Part shown: positions 37,187-44,751 of the stretch, piece after piece
Position numbering within the stretch: the stretch's first letter is position 1
Layout of the letters: each line of letters opens with the position of its first letter
Assembly (NCBI RefSeq): GCF_000517625.1
Contig: NZ_CP007055.1
Location: 806,001 to 870,000 of the forward strand
Length of the DNA: 64,000 nt
Direction: 5' to 3'
DNA from: Halostagnicola larsenii XH-48
GTDB lineage: Archaea > Halobacteriota > Halobacteria > Halobacteriales > Natrialbaceae
Position numbers and translations under genes: made by a program
The notes under the pieces: generated by a model
What the model saw: only the letters and a program-made list of their open reading frames with translations
What the model was told of the DNA's origin: nothing
Databases searched by the model: none

Positions 37187-38533
37187 CTACTCCTCCTCTT
37201 CTTCGGGCGTGTCGGGTGCGTCTCGATCGATGCGCTTGCTCACGTCGACGCGGTAGTTCTCGAGGATGTCTCGGCCGAGGAGGACGGGATAGTCCATGTG
37301 GCTCCGATCTTCGACGCTCGCGGTGACGGTGTGTCGGTTTCCGCCGACGCCGACGACGACGTCGACCACCGGACGACTCTTCGAGGTTTTCGAGCTTCCC
37401 GACTTGACTCGAGTGACCGATTTGATCGGTCCAGCGCCGATATCGGCGGCGAGACTGGTGTCGATGCTGGTTCGCGTCGCACCCGTGTCCGATTTTGCGA
37501 GGATGGACTTCGATCCGCTCGTTCCCGAGAGGACGACTTCCTCCGTGTACCCGATCGTCGTGGGTTCGTCGGTGGTCGTCGGCGTCTGGGGAGGTCGCGC
37601 CGACGGCTCGGTATCGTCGAGCGTCCGGCTGAGTTCCTCGACGCGGTCGTCGTCGACGGAGCCGCCGGCACGTTCGATAGCGAGCTTTGCGATGTAGGGG
37701 GCGGGACTGATCCCCGTGGCTTCATAGAGCCCCTTGAACCCGGCGGTGGGATTGACCTCGAGAACGTACCAGCCGTCCTCGCCCTCGACGAGGTCGACGC
37801 CCGCGTAATCGAGGCCGATGGCGGTCGCGGATTTCGTCGCCATCTCCGCTGCGCTCTCGGGAAGGTCGTCGGTCGCGTCCTCGACGGCGCCGCCGAGTGC
37901 GACGTTCGTTCGCCAGTCGTTGTCCGGCGCGTACCGGTACATCGCGCCGACGATGTCGCCGTCGACGACGTAGACGCGAAGGTCGCGGTTTGGCCCGTCG
38001 CCTTCGCCGATGAGTTCCTGTAAAAACGCATATCGATCGCCGACCTTCGAGTTGACCATGTCGTCGGGGCCGACCTTCCACGTTCCGCCGCCGTGGGTCC
38101 CGATCGCCGTCTTATAGACGGCTTCGTCACCGTACTCGTGACGAGAGGCGTTGAGTCGGTCGCTGCTCAGTGCGAGCAGCACGTTCGGCACGCGAACGCC
38201 GTTGGCCGCGAGCGTTCCCGCCGTCGAGAGTTTGTGGATCGCGGTGAGCACCGATTCAGGACTGTTGAGCATCGGCTTCAACGGCGAGAACGTGTTGACG
38301 AGACCGAGTTCCTCGCAGGGCTGTTCGGTATTCGAGAGCAACATCCGGTTTGCGATGACGTCGACGTCCGGCTCGAGGACGACCGAACCATCCTCCACGC
38401 GGACGCTCGTGTTCTCTTCGCGGAGCCACTCTGTATCGTGATCCAACGCCTCCGCTGCGTTGAGTATCGCCTTCGTTTCCTTGCTCGTGTGGAGGCTGAG
38501 TACCCCAACCGTAATAGAATCTGTTGTAGTCAT
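37187..38533 (-). CDS. ATP-grasp ligase fused to retropepsin-like protease (RimK-RimB-like)
   Basis: A 448-residue two-domain protein. Residues 1-295 form a RimK-type ATP-grasp domain with the glycine-rich KTAIGTHGGGTWKV (141-154) and the E-V-N metal motif (259-261). After a Pro/Thr-rich linker (305-325), residues 330-435 form a retropepsin-like domain of the RimB/DUF785 type with the active-site DTGA (349-352) and MDYPVLLGRDIL (413-424). The ligase adds amino acids, often glutamates, to a protein or peptide, and the protease can remove them (family knowledge). ATG 38533 is supported by a TATA box at 38565-38572. Confidence 0.88.
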   Translation of the reverse strand: MTTTDSITVGVLSLHTSKETKAILNAAEALDHDTEWLREENTSVRVEDGSVVLEPDVDVIANRMLLSNTEQPCEELGLVNTFSPLKPMLNSPESVLTAIHKLSTAGTLAANGVRVPNVLLALSSDRLNASRHEYGDEAVYKTAIGTHGGGTWKVGPDDMVNSKVGDRYAFLQELIGEGDGPNRDLRVYVVDGDIVGAMYRYAPDNDWRTNVALGGAVEDATDDLPESAAEMATKSATAIGLDYAGVDLVEGEDGWYVLEVNPTAGFKGLYEATGISPAPYIAKLAIERAGGSVDDDRVEELSRTLDDTEPSARPPQTPTTTDEPTTIGYTEEVVLSGTSGSKSILAKSDTGATRTSIDTSLAADIGAGPIKSVTRVKSGSSKTSKSRPVVDVVVGVGGNRHTVTASVEDRSHMDYPVLLGRDILENYRVDVSKRIDRDAPDTPEEEEE

Positions 38534-38564
38534 ACTCGAAAAACACCTACAACTCGCAAAAGCG

Positions 38565-38572
38565 TTTATAAT
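38565..38572 (-). promoter_or_regulatory. TATA element for the ATP-grasp/protease gene
   Basis: On the minus strand TTATAAAC, followed by the ATG 32 bp on, places the transcript start near 38542, about 9 nt before the ATG at 38533. Confidence 0.55.
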
Positions 38573-38705
38573 ATTATCGGCCAATGGTATTTGTGAACGA
38601 GGCTGTTTGTCGCTGCCATCCCAGCGACCTTGTATCGGAGATCACGTCGTCAGAGGTGATTTGATGTCTTCTTAACCCTCTATCGCGGTGATCCGATATC
38701 TGCGT

Positions 38706-40175
38706 TCACGTAACGACCGACTGAACTTGCTGGAGGTCGAGCAACCCACTCGCGACGGCAAGCACACCCCACGTGACGACGCCGAGGGCGATCGCACCAG
38801 CTAACATGACGAGATTCGAGATCAGCGGCGTGACGAGCAACACCGCGCCGGCCATCCCGCCAGTAATCCCACAGATACGTCCGAGCGAGCGCGCGAGCGG
38901 CCGGAGATGAAGCGACAGTTCGCTGTGGACGATATAGAGGTTGACCAGCACGTACACCGTGTGCGTTGCGACGGTCGCGATCGCTGCCCCGACGACGCCG
39001 ACTACCGGAATGAGGGCGACGTTGAGTGCGAGATTCGCAATCGAGGTTCCACCCTTCGCTATCGCGCGAGACCGAGCACGACCGAGATAATCGAGACTAT
39101 CGCTCGTGAGGTTCGTGATCGCCTGCAGGACGATAAACAGCGAGAGCACCTGCATGACCGGAACGGCGCCCGCGTACTCGGCGCCGAACACCATCGTCAT
39201 GAACGGGTCGGCGACCAGTGCGAGGCCCACCGCCGCTGGCACGTACAGGAGCATCGCGTTCGTCAGCGCCATCTCGTAGATCCGTCGGGCATCCTCGAGT
39301 TGGCCCGCGGCTTTCTGCTCGCCGAAGTTCGGCGAGATGGTAAAGCCGAGCGACTCCGCGGGTGCGAGAACGAAGTCCGTAATCTGTTTCGCGAGCGTGT
39401 AGAACGCGACGGCGACCGGGTTGAGGAAGAATCCGACGAGAACGATATCGATCTGTTTGTCGATGACGTTCGCGCTCCGGGTCGCCGTCAGGGGCACGCT
39501 GTACTCGAGCAAGCGCCGGGATAGACCGTCTTCGAACTCGTCGGCGATTTCGTATTTCCGGTAGACCTTATAATAGAGCAGTGCGAGCCCGATAGCCGCA
39601 GCGACCGCGTAGCCGACGATATAGCCGAAGAAGGCCCCGAGTGCGCCGAGTCCAGCGAGGACGAACCCCACGGCAAACACCAGTCGAGCCGCCCCACTAA
39701 TGGCCTGAATCGCGGCGCTGTAGACGAGTTGGTTGTACCCCTGAAAGACGATCTGTGCGAAGACGTTGAAGGAGTTGACCGTGATGTAGACTACTCCTGC
39801 AGCCAGAAACGGTGCCGCGCCGGGGTCGCCCAGTAGACTCGCGATGTGTTCGTGAAAGAGCAATAACGTGTACGCGACGACGGCGATTACGACGAGCTTA
39901 GCGGTGACGGTCGTCTGCAAGAGATGCGGGATCTGGCTCGGGTCATCCTCGCGGTATTCGGCGACGTACCGCGCCGCCGACTTCCCTAAGCCGACGTCGG
40001 CGAACAACTGCACGACCGCCAGGATCCCGATCGCCCAGTACAGTTCGCCGTAGCCCGTCGGATCCAGCAGGTACCTGGCGAGAACGAGCATCAACACCGC
40101 ACTCGAGAGCATGTAGACGGCTCGAGCGACGAGCGTCGCTTTGAATCCCTGAAGGATGTGGGCTTGTCTATCCAT
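38706..40175 (-). CDS. Polysaccharide/lipid-oligosaccharide flippase (Wzx/RfbX-like)
   Basis: A 489-residue membrane protein with about 14 helices, of the MATE-like flippase superfamily (polysaccharide transporter family). The N-terminal FKATLVARAVYMLSSAVLML segment and the middle NVIDKQIDIVLVGFF and PNFGEQKAAGQLEDARR segments match the family. It probably moves a lipid-linked sugar across the membrane for glycosylation or surface polymer synthesis. No glycosyltransferases are near, so the substrate is unknown. ATG 40175 was chosen because upstream residues are not hydrophobic or conserved. Confidence 0.85.
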   Translation of the reverse strand: MDRQAHILQGFKATLVARAVYMLSSAVLMLVLARYLLDPTGYGELYWAIGILAVVQLFADVGLGKSAARYVAEYREDDPSQIPHLLQTTVTAKLVVIAVVAYTLLLFHEHIASLLGDPGAAPFLAAGVVYITVNSFNVFAQIVFQGYNQLVYSAAIQAISGAARLVFAVGFVLAGLGALGAFFGYIVGYAVAAAIGLALLYYKVYRKYEIADEFEDGLSRRLLEYSVPLTATRSANVIDKQIDIVLVGFFLNPVAVAFYTLAKQITDFVLAPAESLGFTISPNFGEQKAAGQLEDARRIYEMALTNAMLLYVPAAVGLALVADPFMTMVFGAEYAGAVPVMQVLSLFIVLQAITNLTSDSLDYLGRARSRAIAKGGTSIANLALNVALIPVVGVVGAAIATVATHTVYVLVNLYIVHSELSLHLRPLARSLGRICGITGGMAGAVLLVTPLISNLVMLAGAIALGVVTWGVLAVASGLLDLQQVQSVVT

Positions 40176-40418
40176 GTGTTCCGTTTCTCCGATCGAACCC
40201 GTACTATCCGGTCGTGACTCGACCGGACAGATCGATACACTCACGAAACGACGCCGATGGGCAATTGTAATGGACGGACAACAGCCGGAAACATCGTACT
40301 ACACTGATCTCTCCGTCGTGGATGAACGTCGCTGCGTGGTGATACGGCGCGATAACGAGTCAGGCTCGTTCAATTTTCGGCCGAAGACGGAACGACCGCG
40401 AAAAACCGGCCCCGTACG

Positions 40419-41171
40419 TTAGAGATACGAGGCGTCCCAGCGGGTCGCTTTCCGACGGTTTCCGCAGTTGTTGCACTCGATCCGTCCCATGGTGTCCATC
40501 GCGTTGTCGATCGAGTCGCAGTTCCCACAGAGCCAGCCGTATCTTTCCTCGAGTTCGCCGGTCCCGTACGCGGAGTAAAACGGCGATTTCGACCCGCGAG
40601 CGGCTTCTCCGTAGCTCACGTAGACGTTCTCGCCGTCGATCTCGAGCTGATCGATCGCGTCCCAGTCCTCGTCGCTATCGATATCGGCTTCGACGTAGAC
40701 GTTCTCGGTGAACGTTTCGTCGCCGATATCGACCTCTCGCTGGCCGGCCCGTTCGAAGCCGTGGTCTTCGTAGAAGCGGTTTCCACCCTCGTTGTCCGCG
40801 AGGACGAAACACCGAACCTGGTCGGCGCCTTCCTCGAGCAACCGCTCTCGCGTGCGGACCAGCAGTCGAACGCCCATCCCGCTCCCGCGGTAGTCGGGAT
40901 GGACGTGCAACCAGAGCAGTTGTCCGGTCCCGTACCGTTGACCGACGAGCACGCTCTGAGAGAACGCCGCGATCTCGCCGTCGCGTTCGGCGACGAGAAA
41001 CAGCGTGTGATCGTCGCGTACGTCATCGGCGAACGAGTCGCCGTACCACTGCTCGAGTGCGCCGTCGATCGTATCCTCCGACAGAAAGTCCGTATACAGC
41101 GAATTGAGAGAGTCTTTTGCGACTTGACGGATCTCGTCGACATCTGCTTCGGTTGCCTCACGAAGGTCCAT
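40419..41171 (-). CDS. GNAT-family N-acetyltransferase with C-terminal zinc ribbon
   Basis: A 250-residue protein. The N-terminal 165 residues are a GNAT acetyltransferase, with the acetyl-CoA loop in LHVHPDYRGSGMGVRLL and the later DNEGGNRFYEDHGF. Residues 215-245 hold CGNC and CNNC, a zinc ribbon. The acceptor is unknown. It is divergent from the AstE-type peptidase gene with an intergenic gap of 107 bp, so the two may share control. Confidence 0.86.
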   Translation of the reverse strand: MDLREATEADVDEIRQVAKDSLNSLYTDFLSEDTIDGALEQWYGDSFADDVRDDHTLFLVAERDGEIAAFSQSVLVGQRYGTGQLLWLHVHPDYRGSGMGVRLLVRTRERLLEEGADQVRCFVLADNEGGNRFYEDHGFERAGQREVDIGDETFTENVYVEADIDSDEDWDAIDQLEIDGENVYVSYGEAARGSKSPFYSAYGTGELEERYGWLCGNCDSIDNAMDTMGRIECNNCGNRRKATRWDASYL

Positions 41172-41251
41172 GGTTCTCAGTAGCATGCCCTCGTACAAAA
41201 CATATGCCCTCGAGGGACGTTTCGCCGGTTGGTCACGACAGCGGTACACGT

Positions 41252-41257
41252 TTTATA
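41252..41257 (+). promoter_or_regulatory. TATA element for the AstE/AspA-type peptidase gene
   Basis: TTTATA followed by CCGGG lies 25 bp before the ATG at 41279, so the transcript is expected to be leaderless. Confidence 0.6.
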
Positions 41258-41278
41258 CCGGGACCCGACTGGGGTAGC

Positions 41279-42358
41279 ATGAGCGATACTCGAACGGACG
41301 AACCGCCCGATACCGATGCGGACGGTGAGGACGTGTTCACGTACAACGGCGGTCGTGTCGATCCCGGCGAGTCCGTCAACATCAGATACGGCATCAGCGA
41401 AACGTACCTCGGCGATCCCGTTCGGGTCCCCGTAACGGTCGTCAACGGCCAGTATCCGGGACCGACGGTGTTCCTCTCGGCTGCGGCACACGGCGACGAA
41501 CTCAACGGCATCGAAGTCGTCCGCGAAGTCGCCCACGACTGGGACCATACGGAGCTTCACGGAACGCTGGTCTGTCTCCCCGTGATGAACGTTCCCGGCT
41601 TTCTCGCACAGGAACGCTACTTACCGATTTACGACCGGGATCTCAACCGGTCGTTTCCGGGGCGGGAGGGGTCGACGAGCGCCCGACGGATGGCACACCG
41701 GATTTTCACGAACTTCATCGAACCCTGCGACCTCGGGCTGGATTTTCATACGTCGACCAGAGGCCGGACGAACATGCTTCACGTCCGCGCCGATATGGAA
41801 CACGCCGATATCGTCCGATTGGCGAACGCGTTCAGTTCGAACGTCATCATCGACGGACAGGGACCGTCGGGAACGCTGCGCCGCGAGGCGACGGACGCTG
41901 GGGTCCCCACGATCACCATCGAGATGGGCGAAGCCCACCGCTTCCAGCGATCGCTCATCGATCGGGCGTTGACGGGCGTCGCGAGCGTGCTCGCCGAGTT
42001 CGGACTCCACCGGGACTCGTCGGTCCACTGGCCGGGATGGCGGATCCTGATCGACGACACCGACGAAAAGACGTGGTTGCGCGCCGACGCCGGCGGGATG
42101 GTCGACATGAAACACGGACGCGGCGAACTCGTCCAGGAGGGAGACGTGATCTGTACGATTACGGACCCGTTCAAAGAGGAGGAAGACATCGTTTCGGTCG
42201 AAGCGCCGTTTACCGGCCTGATCGTTGGCGTCCTCGAGAACCCGGTCGTCTACCCTGGCAACCCGCTCTGTCACCTCGTCGGGCTCAAACCGGAAACGCA
42301 AACCGCGCTTGAGCGCGAGCGAAACGAGGGGGACCCGCTGTTACGGTATCTCGAGTGA
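41279..42358 (+). CDS. Succinylglutamate desuccinylase/aspartoacylase family zinc peptidase
   Basis: A 359-residue M14-related amidohydrolase. Zinc ligands are His71 and Glu74 (HGDE) and His157 (LDFHTST). A catalytic Glu is likely in TITIEMGEAHRF. The C-terminal 100 residues form a beta-barrel domain. Enzymes of this family remove acyl or amino-acyl groups from Glu/Asp derivatives. In many genomes such proteins accompany RimK-type ligases and DUF785 proteases (family knowledge), and the fusion of those two domains lies 2.7 kb upstream here. ATG 41279 is set by the TATA box. Confidence 0.88.
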   Translation: MSDTRTDEPPDTDADGEDVFTYNGGRVDPGESVNIRYGISETYLGDPVRVPVTVVNGQYPGPTVFLSAAAHGDELNGIEVVREVAHDWDHTELHGTLVCLPVMNVPGFLAQERYLPIYDRDLNRSFPGREGSTSARRMAHRIFTNFIEPCDLGLDFHTSTRGRTNMLHVRADMEHADIVRLANAFSSNVIIDGQGPSGTLRREATDAGVPTITIEMGEAHRFQRSLIDRALTGVASVLAEFGLHRDSSVHWPGWRILIDDTDEKTWLRADAGGMVDMKHGRGELVQEGDVICTITDPFKEEEDIVSVEAPFTGLIVGVLENPVVYPGNPLCHLVGLKPETQTALERERNEGDPLLRYLE

Positions 42359-42493
42359 TCGGCGGTAACTGCCGGTGACGAAGGCTCGAGAGACGAAGCC
42401 GATCGGTAGGTTTCGGATGGCAGTCCGGTTCACGGCGGTACCTCGGTGTGTGCAAGTTGGTCGTTTATCGACAGCGGTCGCCATACGATCGCT

Positions 42494-42712
42494 ATGGGCG
42501 AACTCAGTGATCGTCTCCTGATCCTGTTGATTGCAGCCACGGGGCTTCTCGTGTTACTCGTGGGCTGGGAATTGGCTCTCGTGGAAGCGCTGGAGATGGA
42601 ACTATCTGGTCGGGTCGAAGCGATCCTGTACGTCGCCGTCATCGTCGTGTTCGTACTGGTGGTTATCAGCGTCTGGATCGAAACCGAACGGATCGACGAG
42701 GATCGTGACTGA
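42494..42712 (+). CDS. Small two-helix membrane protein
   Basis: A 72-residue protein with two predicted transmembrane helices (about 10-29 and 42-62), a short acidic link between them and an acidic C-terminus. ATG 42494 was chosen over the non-AUG upstream start, since it begins right before the first helix with M-G-E-L-S-D-R. No family was recognised. It is 83 bp before the small zinc-finger gene. Confidence 0.6.
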   Translation: MGELSDRLLILLIAATGLLVLLVGWELALVEALEMELSGRVEAILYVAVIVVFVLVVISVWIETERIDEDRD

Positions 42713-42795
42713 TTCCGAGGTTCGCATGCCCAACCCGTGGAAAACGTTGGATTACGGCCAAAACATGAAAACCATTGGAACGTGACCCGGTCAGT

Positions 42796-42969
42796 ATGGC
42801 TCAGGAAGCGAACTGTCCGCACTGCTCGGAGGACGTCATGGTCGATATCGACTGGATCGTACTAAGAACGAGGAAGAAACCCCCAACCGTCAACAGCGAT
42901 TTTTCAAAATCCGCGACGTGTACCGAGTGCGGAGAGAAGTTCGCTTGCAAGGTCGACACTCCGTACTGA
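42796..42969 (+). CDS. Small zinc-finger protein
   Basis: A 57-residue protein with CPHC near the N-terminus and CTEC in the C-terminal half, a pattern of the small zinc-finger proteins frequent in Halobacteria. ATG 42796 starts M-A-Q-E-A-N before the first Cys pair. The role is unknown; such proteins have been linked to regulation in Haloferax, but no evidence is available here. Confidence 0.65.
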   Translation: MAQEANCPHCSEDVMVDIDWIVLRTRKKPPTVNSDFSKSATCTECGEKFACKVDTPY

Positions 42970-43243
42970 ACGCTTCTGCTCTGTCGAATCATCGGAAGGC
43001 ATCGGCCTCATTGACCGAGTCGTCCGACTCAAACTGTTATTTGAAGTGTTTTGAAGCTGTCCCCGGAGATCGGTTGCCGAATCTCGACTGTTGAACGCCT
43101 ACGGTCACAGCAACTCCAGAAGGGCGTTCAGATAAATCGCCTCGGGGTCAAGCACGAGATATTCTCCGATATTGGTTGATAAACTGTGAACTTAGTGTAT
43201 ATGCTGGCCCAGACGGCACGATATCCTCTCGGAAGAAGACATA

Positions 43244-43684
43244 TTACGGACTTCTCATTCTGATCTCAAATTCACCTTCTTCCGAGATTGTTAACTGAAA
43301 GGATTCATCGCTTGTTATCGAGTGTTCTGCAGAAATAAGTTCACCATTATTTTGGACTTCTAAACGAACTGTCGTAGAGACAGTACCATCTAGATTAGCA
43401 GTATCAAAGTTCACTTCCTTTGTTTCGATCGGTCCTGGGCCGATTTCCACTACTTTATCAATAAGATTATTTCCATTTTTCTGGTTTTTAACGACCATCT
43501 CGAAGCTATACGGTTGGTCATCAAGGTTTTCGATGTGGACCGCTGACTTGACGACGGTATCATCACTTTCGGACACCGGTAGAAATCCAATACAACCAAC
43601 CGTACTCGTAACACTAGCTGTTACTGCCGTTGCAATTACCGATCTTCGGTAATAGCTATTTTCCTTCCTCTCTTTCGCTCTCAT
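43244..43684 (-). CDS. Tat-type lipoprotein, AT-rich, unknown function
   Basis: A 146-residue protein with a twin-Arg signal (Arg13-Arg14) followed by a hydrophobic stretch and a lipobox ending at Cys31 (TVGC). It is therefore predicted to be exported folded and lipid-anchored. The mature part is beta-rich and contains several Asn and Lys residues. Its DNA is clearly AT-richer than the neighbours and its codon use differs, so it was probably gained recently. A short ORF-like end downstream (43150-43240) may be a gene remnant, but is not identifiable. Confidence 0.72.
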   Translation of the reverse strand: MRAKERKENSYYRRSVIATAVTASVTSTVGCIGFLPVSESDDTVVKSAVHIENLDDQPYSFEMVVKNQKNGNNLIDKVVEIGPGPIETKEVNFDTANLDGTVSTTVRLEVQNNGELISAEHSITSDESFQLTISEEGEFEIRMRSP

Positions 43685-43960
43685 CGGATCTGACTAAATA
43701 CAATATCCAGACATATTACTCTCTTTCAATTTTGAACGGGATCGATCACCTGCACGGGTATCACGACACCGTGGACATTCTCTCCGCACTGTTGGTTGGG
43801 TGAAACAGACCAAATGGCTCCCCCGCCTGAACTGCGGATAAATCGGTACCAACTTTCAAATAGTTCTTTGCTAAACAACGGAATGGGGCAGGGGGATACA
43901 GGCCACAGGCCGAACGGTACGATATACCGACGTTCCCAGACCCCGAACTGATATATGTCG

Positions 43961-43981
43961 AAAAGGCCTCCCCGGCCTTTT
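43961..43981. terminator. Hairpin with AT-rich arms
   Basis: AAAAGGCC, a 5-nt loop TCCCC and GGCCTTTT form a perfect 8-bp stem. Each strand ends in T residues, so it could act as a bidirectional terminator between the lipoprotein pocket and the sdh operon; other roles are possible. Confidence 0.35.
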
Positions 43982-44273
43982 CTGCGAAGAAACTCCCGAC
44001 CGTTTTTCCGACGAGTCCATTACTTCCACGTCGTTTTCGCTCGTTCAGTCATGAACTCGCCGAACATCGCAACCCCTTCGGATTTGCTCAATCCTGAACA
44101 GCCGCTCGAGTCCCGAACGTCCGCCGAGTCCGGCGCGTCTCGAGCGCACCCCGGCCGGTCTTCGCTTACCGGACCGCTCGATGTGACAGACGAACATCGA
44201 TTCGGCGATTCAGTACCTGATTCACTATCCTGTGAGTTGTATTTTTCCGGTTTTCCGCTCGGCGTGGAATCCA

Positions 44274-44286
44274 AGAAGTAACTTCT
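44274..44286. promoter_or_regulatory. Palindrome overlapping the TATA region of sdhCDBA
   Basis: AGAAGT, one base, ACTTCT is a perfect inverted repeat that runs into TTCTATAC (TATA-like, 44283-44290). The TATA spacing gives a transcript start near 44312, some 8 nt before the sdhC ATG at 44320. An operator bound by a dimeric repressor would block TBP here (inference). Confidence 0.45.
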
Positions 44287-44319
44287 ATACCCCCGCGGGC
44301 TAACCCACCACATGAGTGT

Positions 44320-44751
44320 ATGAGTCAGTCTTACAATCGCGGTCTCATCGAGGACTTCGGCCGGTGGAAGGAGTTCTCGGCCGGAATGTGGGCGTGGATT
44401 TTTCACAAATTCACCGGGTGGATGCTGATCGGCTACCTGTTTACCCACATCGCCGTGTTGAGCACAGCAATCGGTGCGGCGAATGGACAGATGATGATGG
44501 TCGGCGGTGAGGAAGTAAACGTCTTCACGGGAACGATCCAGGGACTCGAGGGGCTCTTTATCGTTCGCGTGCTCGAGGTCGGTCTCCTCGCAGTCGCGGT
44601 CTTTCACATCCTAAACGGCGTGCGACTGTTGATGGTCGACCTCGGTATCGGGCTCGAATCCCAAGACAAGAGTTTCTACGCGTCACTGGTTCTCACGGGC
44701 GCTATCACCGTCGCGAGCGTTCCGACCTTCCTCTCGGGGGTGGGCTTTTAA
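44320..44751 (+). CDS. sdhC: Succinate dehydrogenase cytochrome b subunit
   Basis: A 143-residue membrane anchor with three helices (about 27-50, 72-95, 118-140). The [17 protein letters not shown] segment matches the S/F-H-x2-T-G motif of SdhC and holds a candidate heme or quinone His; another is in VFHILNGVR. It feeds electrons from succinate into the quinone pool. First gene of sdhCDBA; stop overlaps sdhD by one base (TAATG). Confidence 0.92.

Follow-up and report, generated by a model that had tools for sequence, protein, structure and literature searches.

The haloarchaeon Halostagnicola larsenii XH-48 encodes, in a single polypeptide, an ATP-grasp domain of the glutamate-ligase type and a RimB-like domain with a DTGA motif. 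Sequence comparison showed that the two domains appear intact and are conserved class-wide together with an AstE/AspA-type hydrolase. We somewhat favour the reading that these proteins form a haloarchaeal RimK-RimB-AstE kit, in which the fusion would write and trim poly-glutamate and the AstE-type enzyme would serve as a third hydrolase. The window analysed here is a stretch of 64,000 nucleotides (NZ_CP007055.1, positions 806,001 to 870,000), and its relevant features, numbered from its first letter, are the following:

37187..38533, minus strand: RimK-retropepsin fusion, 448 aa (stop codon counted in the coordinates)
37634..38533, minus strand: RimK-type ATP-grasp ligase half, aa 1-300 (PF08443, AlphaFold2, PDB match 4iwx)
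37751..37759, minus strand: E259-V260-N261 metal-binding motif of the ATP-grasp domain (E259 and N261 invariant in 45 orthologues)
37556..37612, minus strand: Pro/Thr-rich linker, about aa 308-326 (low model confidence, variable among orthologues)
37226..37555, minus strand: RimB/RloA-like retropepsin domain, predicted, about aa 327-436 (PF05618, 9g59/9g58 profiles, hhalign to RimB)
37478..37489, minus strand: DTGA catalytic motif, aa 349-352 (invariant in 45 orthologues)
37190..37225, minus strand: C-terminal acidic tail, last five residues Glu (76/78 orthologues end in E)
38564..38574, minus strand: TATA-like element ATATTATAAAC, putative fusion promoter (read by eye, about 30 bp upstream of the ATG)
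38706..40244, minus strand: Wzx/MOP-type flippase, a Natrialbaceae-only neighbour outside the core
40419..41249, minus strand: GNAT with DUF5816 zinc ribbon (PF00583, DUF5816), a neighbour in Natrialbaceae and Haloarchaeobius only, outside the core
41251..41257, plus strand: TATA-like element of the AstE-type gene (read by eye)
41279..42358, plus strand: AstE/AspA-type zinc hydrolase, 359 aa, partner gene (PF24827)

The fusion can also be read as a longer frame from a TTG start (37187-38584, minus strand), which ATATTATAAAC overlaps. The position of this element and the methionine at which the orthologues begin, which matches the ATG at 38533, indicate that this ATG is most likely the start. 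In haloarchaeal promoters with a very short leader, the TATA element is expected about 30 bp upstream of the start. Since ATATTATAAAC lies at this distance from the ATG, leaving a very short leader, the fusion is probably transcribed from its own promoter. Both halves scored above the Pfam cut-offs, at 82 bits against 21 for PF08443 (RimK; E 5.5e-23) and 38.5 bits against 27 for PF05618 (Zn_protease; E 1.3e-9). These matches bear out the preliminary description of a RimK-type ligase joined to a RimB-like retropepsin domain through a Pro/Thr linker, and the positions that it gave for EVN (259-261) and DTGA (349-352) are exact in the 448-residue numbering. D247, E259 and N261, the metal-binding residues of the ATP-grasp site, were unchanged across 45 aligned orthologues, as was DTGA.

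A scan of species genomes recovered 80 relatives with 62-82% identity, all under haloarchaeal names except one MAG filed only as Euryarchaeota. Co-occurrence was assessed in 145 Halobacteria genomes that are at least 95% complete. The fusion was present in 131 and the AstE-type gene in 132 of them; 131 had both, 13 had neither and one had AstE alone (Fisher p 1.2e-17, a value that ignores phylogeny and linkage, the co-loss counts being inflated by physical linkage). In the single AstE-only genome (G228, locus L191), what is left of the fusion next to the AstE gene is a stub of 79 residues. Absences of the pair are scattered, and in several cases it is missing from one species only, the rest of the genus carrying both genes. 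Because it occurs in 131/145 genomes and its catalytic residues are invariant in the 45 orthologues, the fusion is not a chance occurrence.

The partner protein matched AstE_AspA_cat (PF24827) with 168.7 bits (E 1.4e-49). Its residues H71, E74, H157 and E215 were invariant in 61 sequences, the first three being zinc ligands in the AstE/AspA family. It scored below the cut-offs of the AstE (25 vs 305.65), DoeB (95 vs 402.7) and aspartoacylase (34 vs 180) equivalogs. At most loci outside Natrialbaceae, the fusion and AstE genes are divergent with starts 18-228 bp apart (about 1 kb in Haloarchaeobius), and sdhC, of the succinate dehydrogenase cluster sdhCDBA, typically lies about 110 bp downstream of AstE (e.g. 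L004-L081). In the window, the AstE-sdhC spacing is replaced by a 2 kb gap (42358-44320) holding a lipoprotein-like ORF of 146 aa (43244-43684, minus strand).

Shared synteny beside sdhCDBA was considered as the sole cause of the link to AstE. This explanation is weakened by pairs found elsewhere: in settings outside the sdh synteny, a fusion paralogue of 45-49% identity has a divergent AstE paralogue for neighbour (L114-L116, L224-L230), the Halolamina pair is on a plasmid, and at L192-L199 both genes are kept though far apart in the genome. The proposal that the AstE-type gene belongs with the fusion is therefore upheld, by the co-occurrence counts, by divergent adjacency in most families and by duplication or mobility as a pair. 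All three enzyme types (RimB, RimK and AstE) are genetically linked in haloarchaea.

The other two neighbours behaved differently. In Natrialbaceae, the GNAT-DUF5816 gene and the flippase separate the fusion from AstE, with a gap of mostly 2.5-3 kb, and in Haloarchaeobius the GNAT stands alone between them. Neither gene was found between fusion and AstE in Haloferacaceae, Haloarculaceae and others. Given this distribution, the flippase and GNAT are lineage-specific insertions at the level of Natrialbaceae. The preliminary description had grouped all three neighbours with the fusion, the flippase and GNAT with reserve, and had named as one ground for refutation a fusion present without the three genes in most relatives. 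Half of that ground applies: the flippase and GNAT are missing from beside the pair in other families, while AstE co-occurs with the fusion. A four-gene surface or peptide-modifying system including both genes is very improbable: at 28 Natrialbaceae loci the flippase does occupy this position and points the same way as the fusion, but the distribution in other families largely refutes the idea, and downstream of the flippase the fusion is preceded by a TATA element of its own. The DUF5816 fused to the GNAT (40419-41249) is a zinc-ribbon domain without assigned function.

The family placement of the ligase half was analysed by scores, trees and models. AlphaFold2 gave a good model of this half (pLDDT mostly 75-97), whose top PDB matches were RimK 4iwx (E 1.1e-18) and LysX/ArgX 5k2m. 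Against TIGR00768, it scored 142.7 bits, and 144.1 in the genome search, for a subfamily cut-off of 143.4. It remained under the cut-offs of the equivalogs for S6-specific RimK (59 bits vs 331), LysX/ArgX (103.9 vs 275.6), MptN (122.2 vs 350) and CofF (54 vs 300), and fell outside the S6-RimK, LysX/ArgX and MptN clades of the ATP-grasp tree, which contained no confirmed CofF sequence. The haloarchaeal fusions and their paralogues formed a deep branch of their own, apart from these three clades, and the RimK of a methanogen gene triad described below grouped with S6-RimK. This tree gave no support to a descent of the ligase half from S6-RimK or the RimK of the methanogen triad. A separate ArgX/LysX is encoded in the H. 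larsenii genome (L002, L150: 285.9 bits). The same genome holds a second RimK-like ATP-grasp protein (L003 1435-2304, minus strand; G000:C1 ~274000) near the gene for ribosomal protein L10e; it sits on a very long tree branch and reaches no equivalog family. As the ligase half lies outside the S6-RimK clade and scores at the TIGR00768 cut-off, its presumed specificity for glutamate is only inferred.

This placement bears on a different reading, a small-molecule cycle. The ligase half would make a short glutamyl compound, the AspA/AstE-type enzyme would hydrolyse it, and the retropepsin domain would regulate the ligase; the products envisaged are a glutamylated coenzyme or an N-acyl-aspartyl/glutamyl osmolyte like NAAG, which is made in mammals by RimK-like enzymes. 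N-acyl amino acids are AspA/AstE substrates, as known for the family, and the ligase domain scores higher for MptN (122 bits) and LysX (104) than for the S6 ligase (59). Moreover, RimK-family enzymes modify coenzymes and small acyl amino acids (references 75 and 76 of PMC10219603). Methanogen coenzymes are among these substrates. However, the fusion falls outside the MptN and LysX clades and far under their equivalog cut-offs, and a protease of the poly-Glu-specific type together with a conserved Glu tail is ill-suited to a small molecule. We therefore regard this cycle as rather unlikely.

The C-terminal half matched, by profile, solved RloA-type retropepsin-like structures (9g59, E 2.8e-9; 9g58, E 3.8e-6), and aligned with RimB in hhalign (probability 92%, E 8e-7). 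Its predicted retropepsin identity is one of homology, based on these profile matches to RloA and RimB. AlphaFold2 models of this half, alone and in the full protein, were unreliable (pLDDT about 30-39). The homodimeric nature of retropepsins may defeat a shallow prediction made on one chain. A stand-alone retropepsin-like protein of 124 aa, annotated as a glutaminyl transferase, is encoded on a Natrinema plasmid (CP031304.1; L140 3977-4351), next to the gene of a zinc-ribbon protein.

Paralogues of the fusion with a decayed protease were also found. In genus g89 of family f4 (L118-L120, L133, L205-L216; over a dozen sequences), the ligase is intact, the catalytic motif has decayed (IDTAAS etc., a few still DTGA) and the flap region is deleted; these paralogues have neither an AstE neighbour nor a Glu ending. 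Being natural pseudoproteases, they would be useful as controls. Another dead-protease clade (L121-L123) retains LEE in two of its three members. The C-terminal domain could also lack proteolytic function and serve for dimerisation or allosteric control, the protein then being a regulated glutamate ligase. This would fit the lack of a reliable retropepsin fold in AlphaFold2, the paralogue clades which, without catalytic motif and flap, retain the domain and an intact ligase, and the stimulation of RimK ATPase by RimB (PMC7343187). Nevertheless, D349-T-G-A and many other residues of the domain are invariant in the main clade (45 orthologues), decay being confined to the paralogues, which makes a purely non-proteolytic role distinctly unlikely.

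The encoded C-terminus of the fusion was compared with those of 1023 neighbouring proteins. A terminal Glu was found in 76/78 fusions (97%) against 15.1% of the neighbours, a Glu-Glu ending in 69% against 1.2%, and at least five Glu within the last ten residues in 58% against 0.5%. General acidity of haloarchaeal proteins is an unlikely cause, because the last five residues of the fusions hold 263 Glu and 7 Asp, while the background holds 564 and 419. The tails otherwise vary (EEEE, EELLEE, EEYLE, RRVDAEE); thus, the terminal Glu is the conserved feature. No such tail was found in the bacterial RimBK and RimK proteins checked. Over sequences, an intact protease and a Glu ending were associated (53/4 vs 3/13, Fisher p 1.3e-8), which corresponds to about two independent losses. 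With so few events, and one clade keeping LEE in two of three members, the loss of the tail together with the protease is only suggestive.

The longest Glu run was most often four residues (33/79 fusion sequences), so that the encoded tail often has about the length that RimB leaves on RpsF. Pseudomonas fluorescens RimB trims RpsF Glu chains to a minimum of about four (PMC7343187), its cutting requires five to six contiguous Glu, and native RpsF ends in ADE in P. fluorescens and SEE in E. coli (PMC11957791, Table 1). By analogy with these values, the tail is closer in shape to a trimmed product or an acceptor than to a good protease substrate.

In the favoured poly-glutamate reading, the ligase half would extend an acceptor that ends in Glu with alpha-linked L-glutamate, at the expense of ATP. 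Dimers of the retropepsin half, possibly formed via the ligase oligomer, would shorten the poly-Glu chains until only a short stub is left. The products would then be cleared by the AstE-type enzyme, through removal of terminal Glu or deacylation of the released peptide. To our knowledge, archaea lack S6, and poly-glutamylation of protein C-termini has so far been tied to bacterial S6. The acceptor would therefore be something other than bacterial S6, and a class-wide module of the same enzyme types where S6 does not exist implies that poly-Glu is added elsewhere or used differently. With its genome-encoded Glu-ended tail, the fusion itself is one candidate: the tail would be extended by the ligase half and trimmed by the retropepsin half. 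We hold this self-modification to be unlikely as it stands. If true, tail length would reflect the cell's salt or glutamate/ATP state, and would tune the enzyme or release poly-Glu. Such self-modification would amount to a reversible switch by C-terminal glutamylation, contained in one protein, and to the first archaeal poly-glutamylation system according to the papers searched. With its AstE partner, its Glu tail and the pseudoprotease paralogues, the fusion can be approached genetically in Haloferax in the search for the acceptor.

Salt is a possible theme of the kit. RimK/RimB/AstE genes occur in marine and saline lineages, Photobacterium damselae RimK is 52-fold up at 1% NaCl (PMC10308900), and brackish bacteria have glutamate-modification genes, RimK orthologues among them, more commonly than marine ones do (PMC10219603). 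By analogy, these links to marine and salt-living lineages would make ionic adaptation one thing to test. At L136 and L138 (Salinivibrio/Vibrio), the RimK/AstE/RimB genes lie beside genes for a magnesium transporter and a mechanosensitive channel, hinting at ionic or osmotic adaptation.

Altogether, the fusion module is a real, conserved and coherent variant of the bacterial kit. Our literature search, outside of which lay the 2009 amidoligase survey of Iyer and colleagues (reportedly a comparative-genomics paper), returned no paper on the haloarchaeal fusion, and the papers searched describe a RimB/RimK hybrid in bacteria only. New here are the class-wide archaeal distribution, a ligase of separate lineage fused in reversed order, the partnership with AstE, backed by co-loss and paralogous pairs, and the encoded Glu tail, which makes self-modification testable. 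A fused write-and-erase enzyme, as proposed in the preliminary description, is not new in itself, since bacterial RimBK hybrids have been published in Desulfotalea psychrophila (DP2392), Flavobacteriales and Rhodobacterales, with RimB at the N-terminus (PMC11957791).

The haloarchaeal kit can be compared with several known systems. LysX/ArgX, MptN and CofF share the RimK-family ATP-grasp fold with the ligase half; the fusion nevertheless lies far below their equivalog cut-offs, LysX/ArgX and MptN forming separate clades. RloA/RloC of Pseudomonas (PMC12239564) provide the closest solved retropepsin structures and are encoded beside an ATP-grasp gene but, unlike the fusion, comprise a secreted protease with a membrane partner, RloB.

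Separate RimB, RimK and AstE-type genes form a tight operon at 11 loci of what are probably Methanosarcinaceae, and annotated operons read RimB-RimK-AstE in Salinivibrio and Acaryochloris and RimK-AstE-RimB in Vibrio europaeus. Their enzyme types are identical to those of the haloarchaeal kit, but they have three separate genes with an S6-type RimK, whereas haloarchaea have the fusion and a divergent AstE gene. Haloarchaeal AstE is sister to the triad AstE (support 89/71, with long outgroup branches). The ligase may have been exchanged in an old triad, or may have diverged along with it.

Bacterial RimBK likewise carries a RimB-like retropepsin and a RimK-like ligase in one chain; its RimB is N-terminal, however, whereas the haloarchaeal retropepsin is C-terminal and its ligase comes from a different RimK-family lineage. 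We also found hybrids of the RimB-first order in Thioclava and Aureibacter, with no AstE gene in their neighbourhood and no Glu tail. Poly-Glu cleavage is known for P. fluorescens RimB, where it depends on D31, and for D. psychrophila RimBK, which did not, however, glutamylate RpsF; RimB also raises poly-Glu synthesis by RimK (PMC11957791). Glutamate ligation and poly-Glu trimming by the fusion would thus have direct bacterial precedent. The RimABK system of P. fluorescens resembles the fusion in using a ligase and a retropepsin on C-terminal Glu chains, but it consists of separate genes, targets RpsF (S6) and is controlled by RimA and c-di-GMP.
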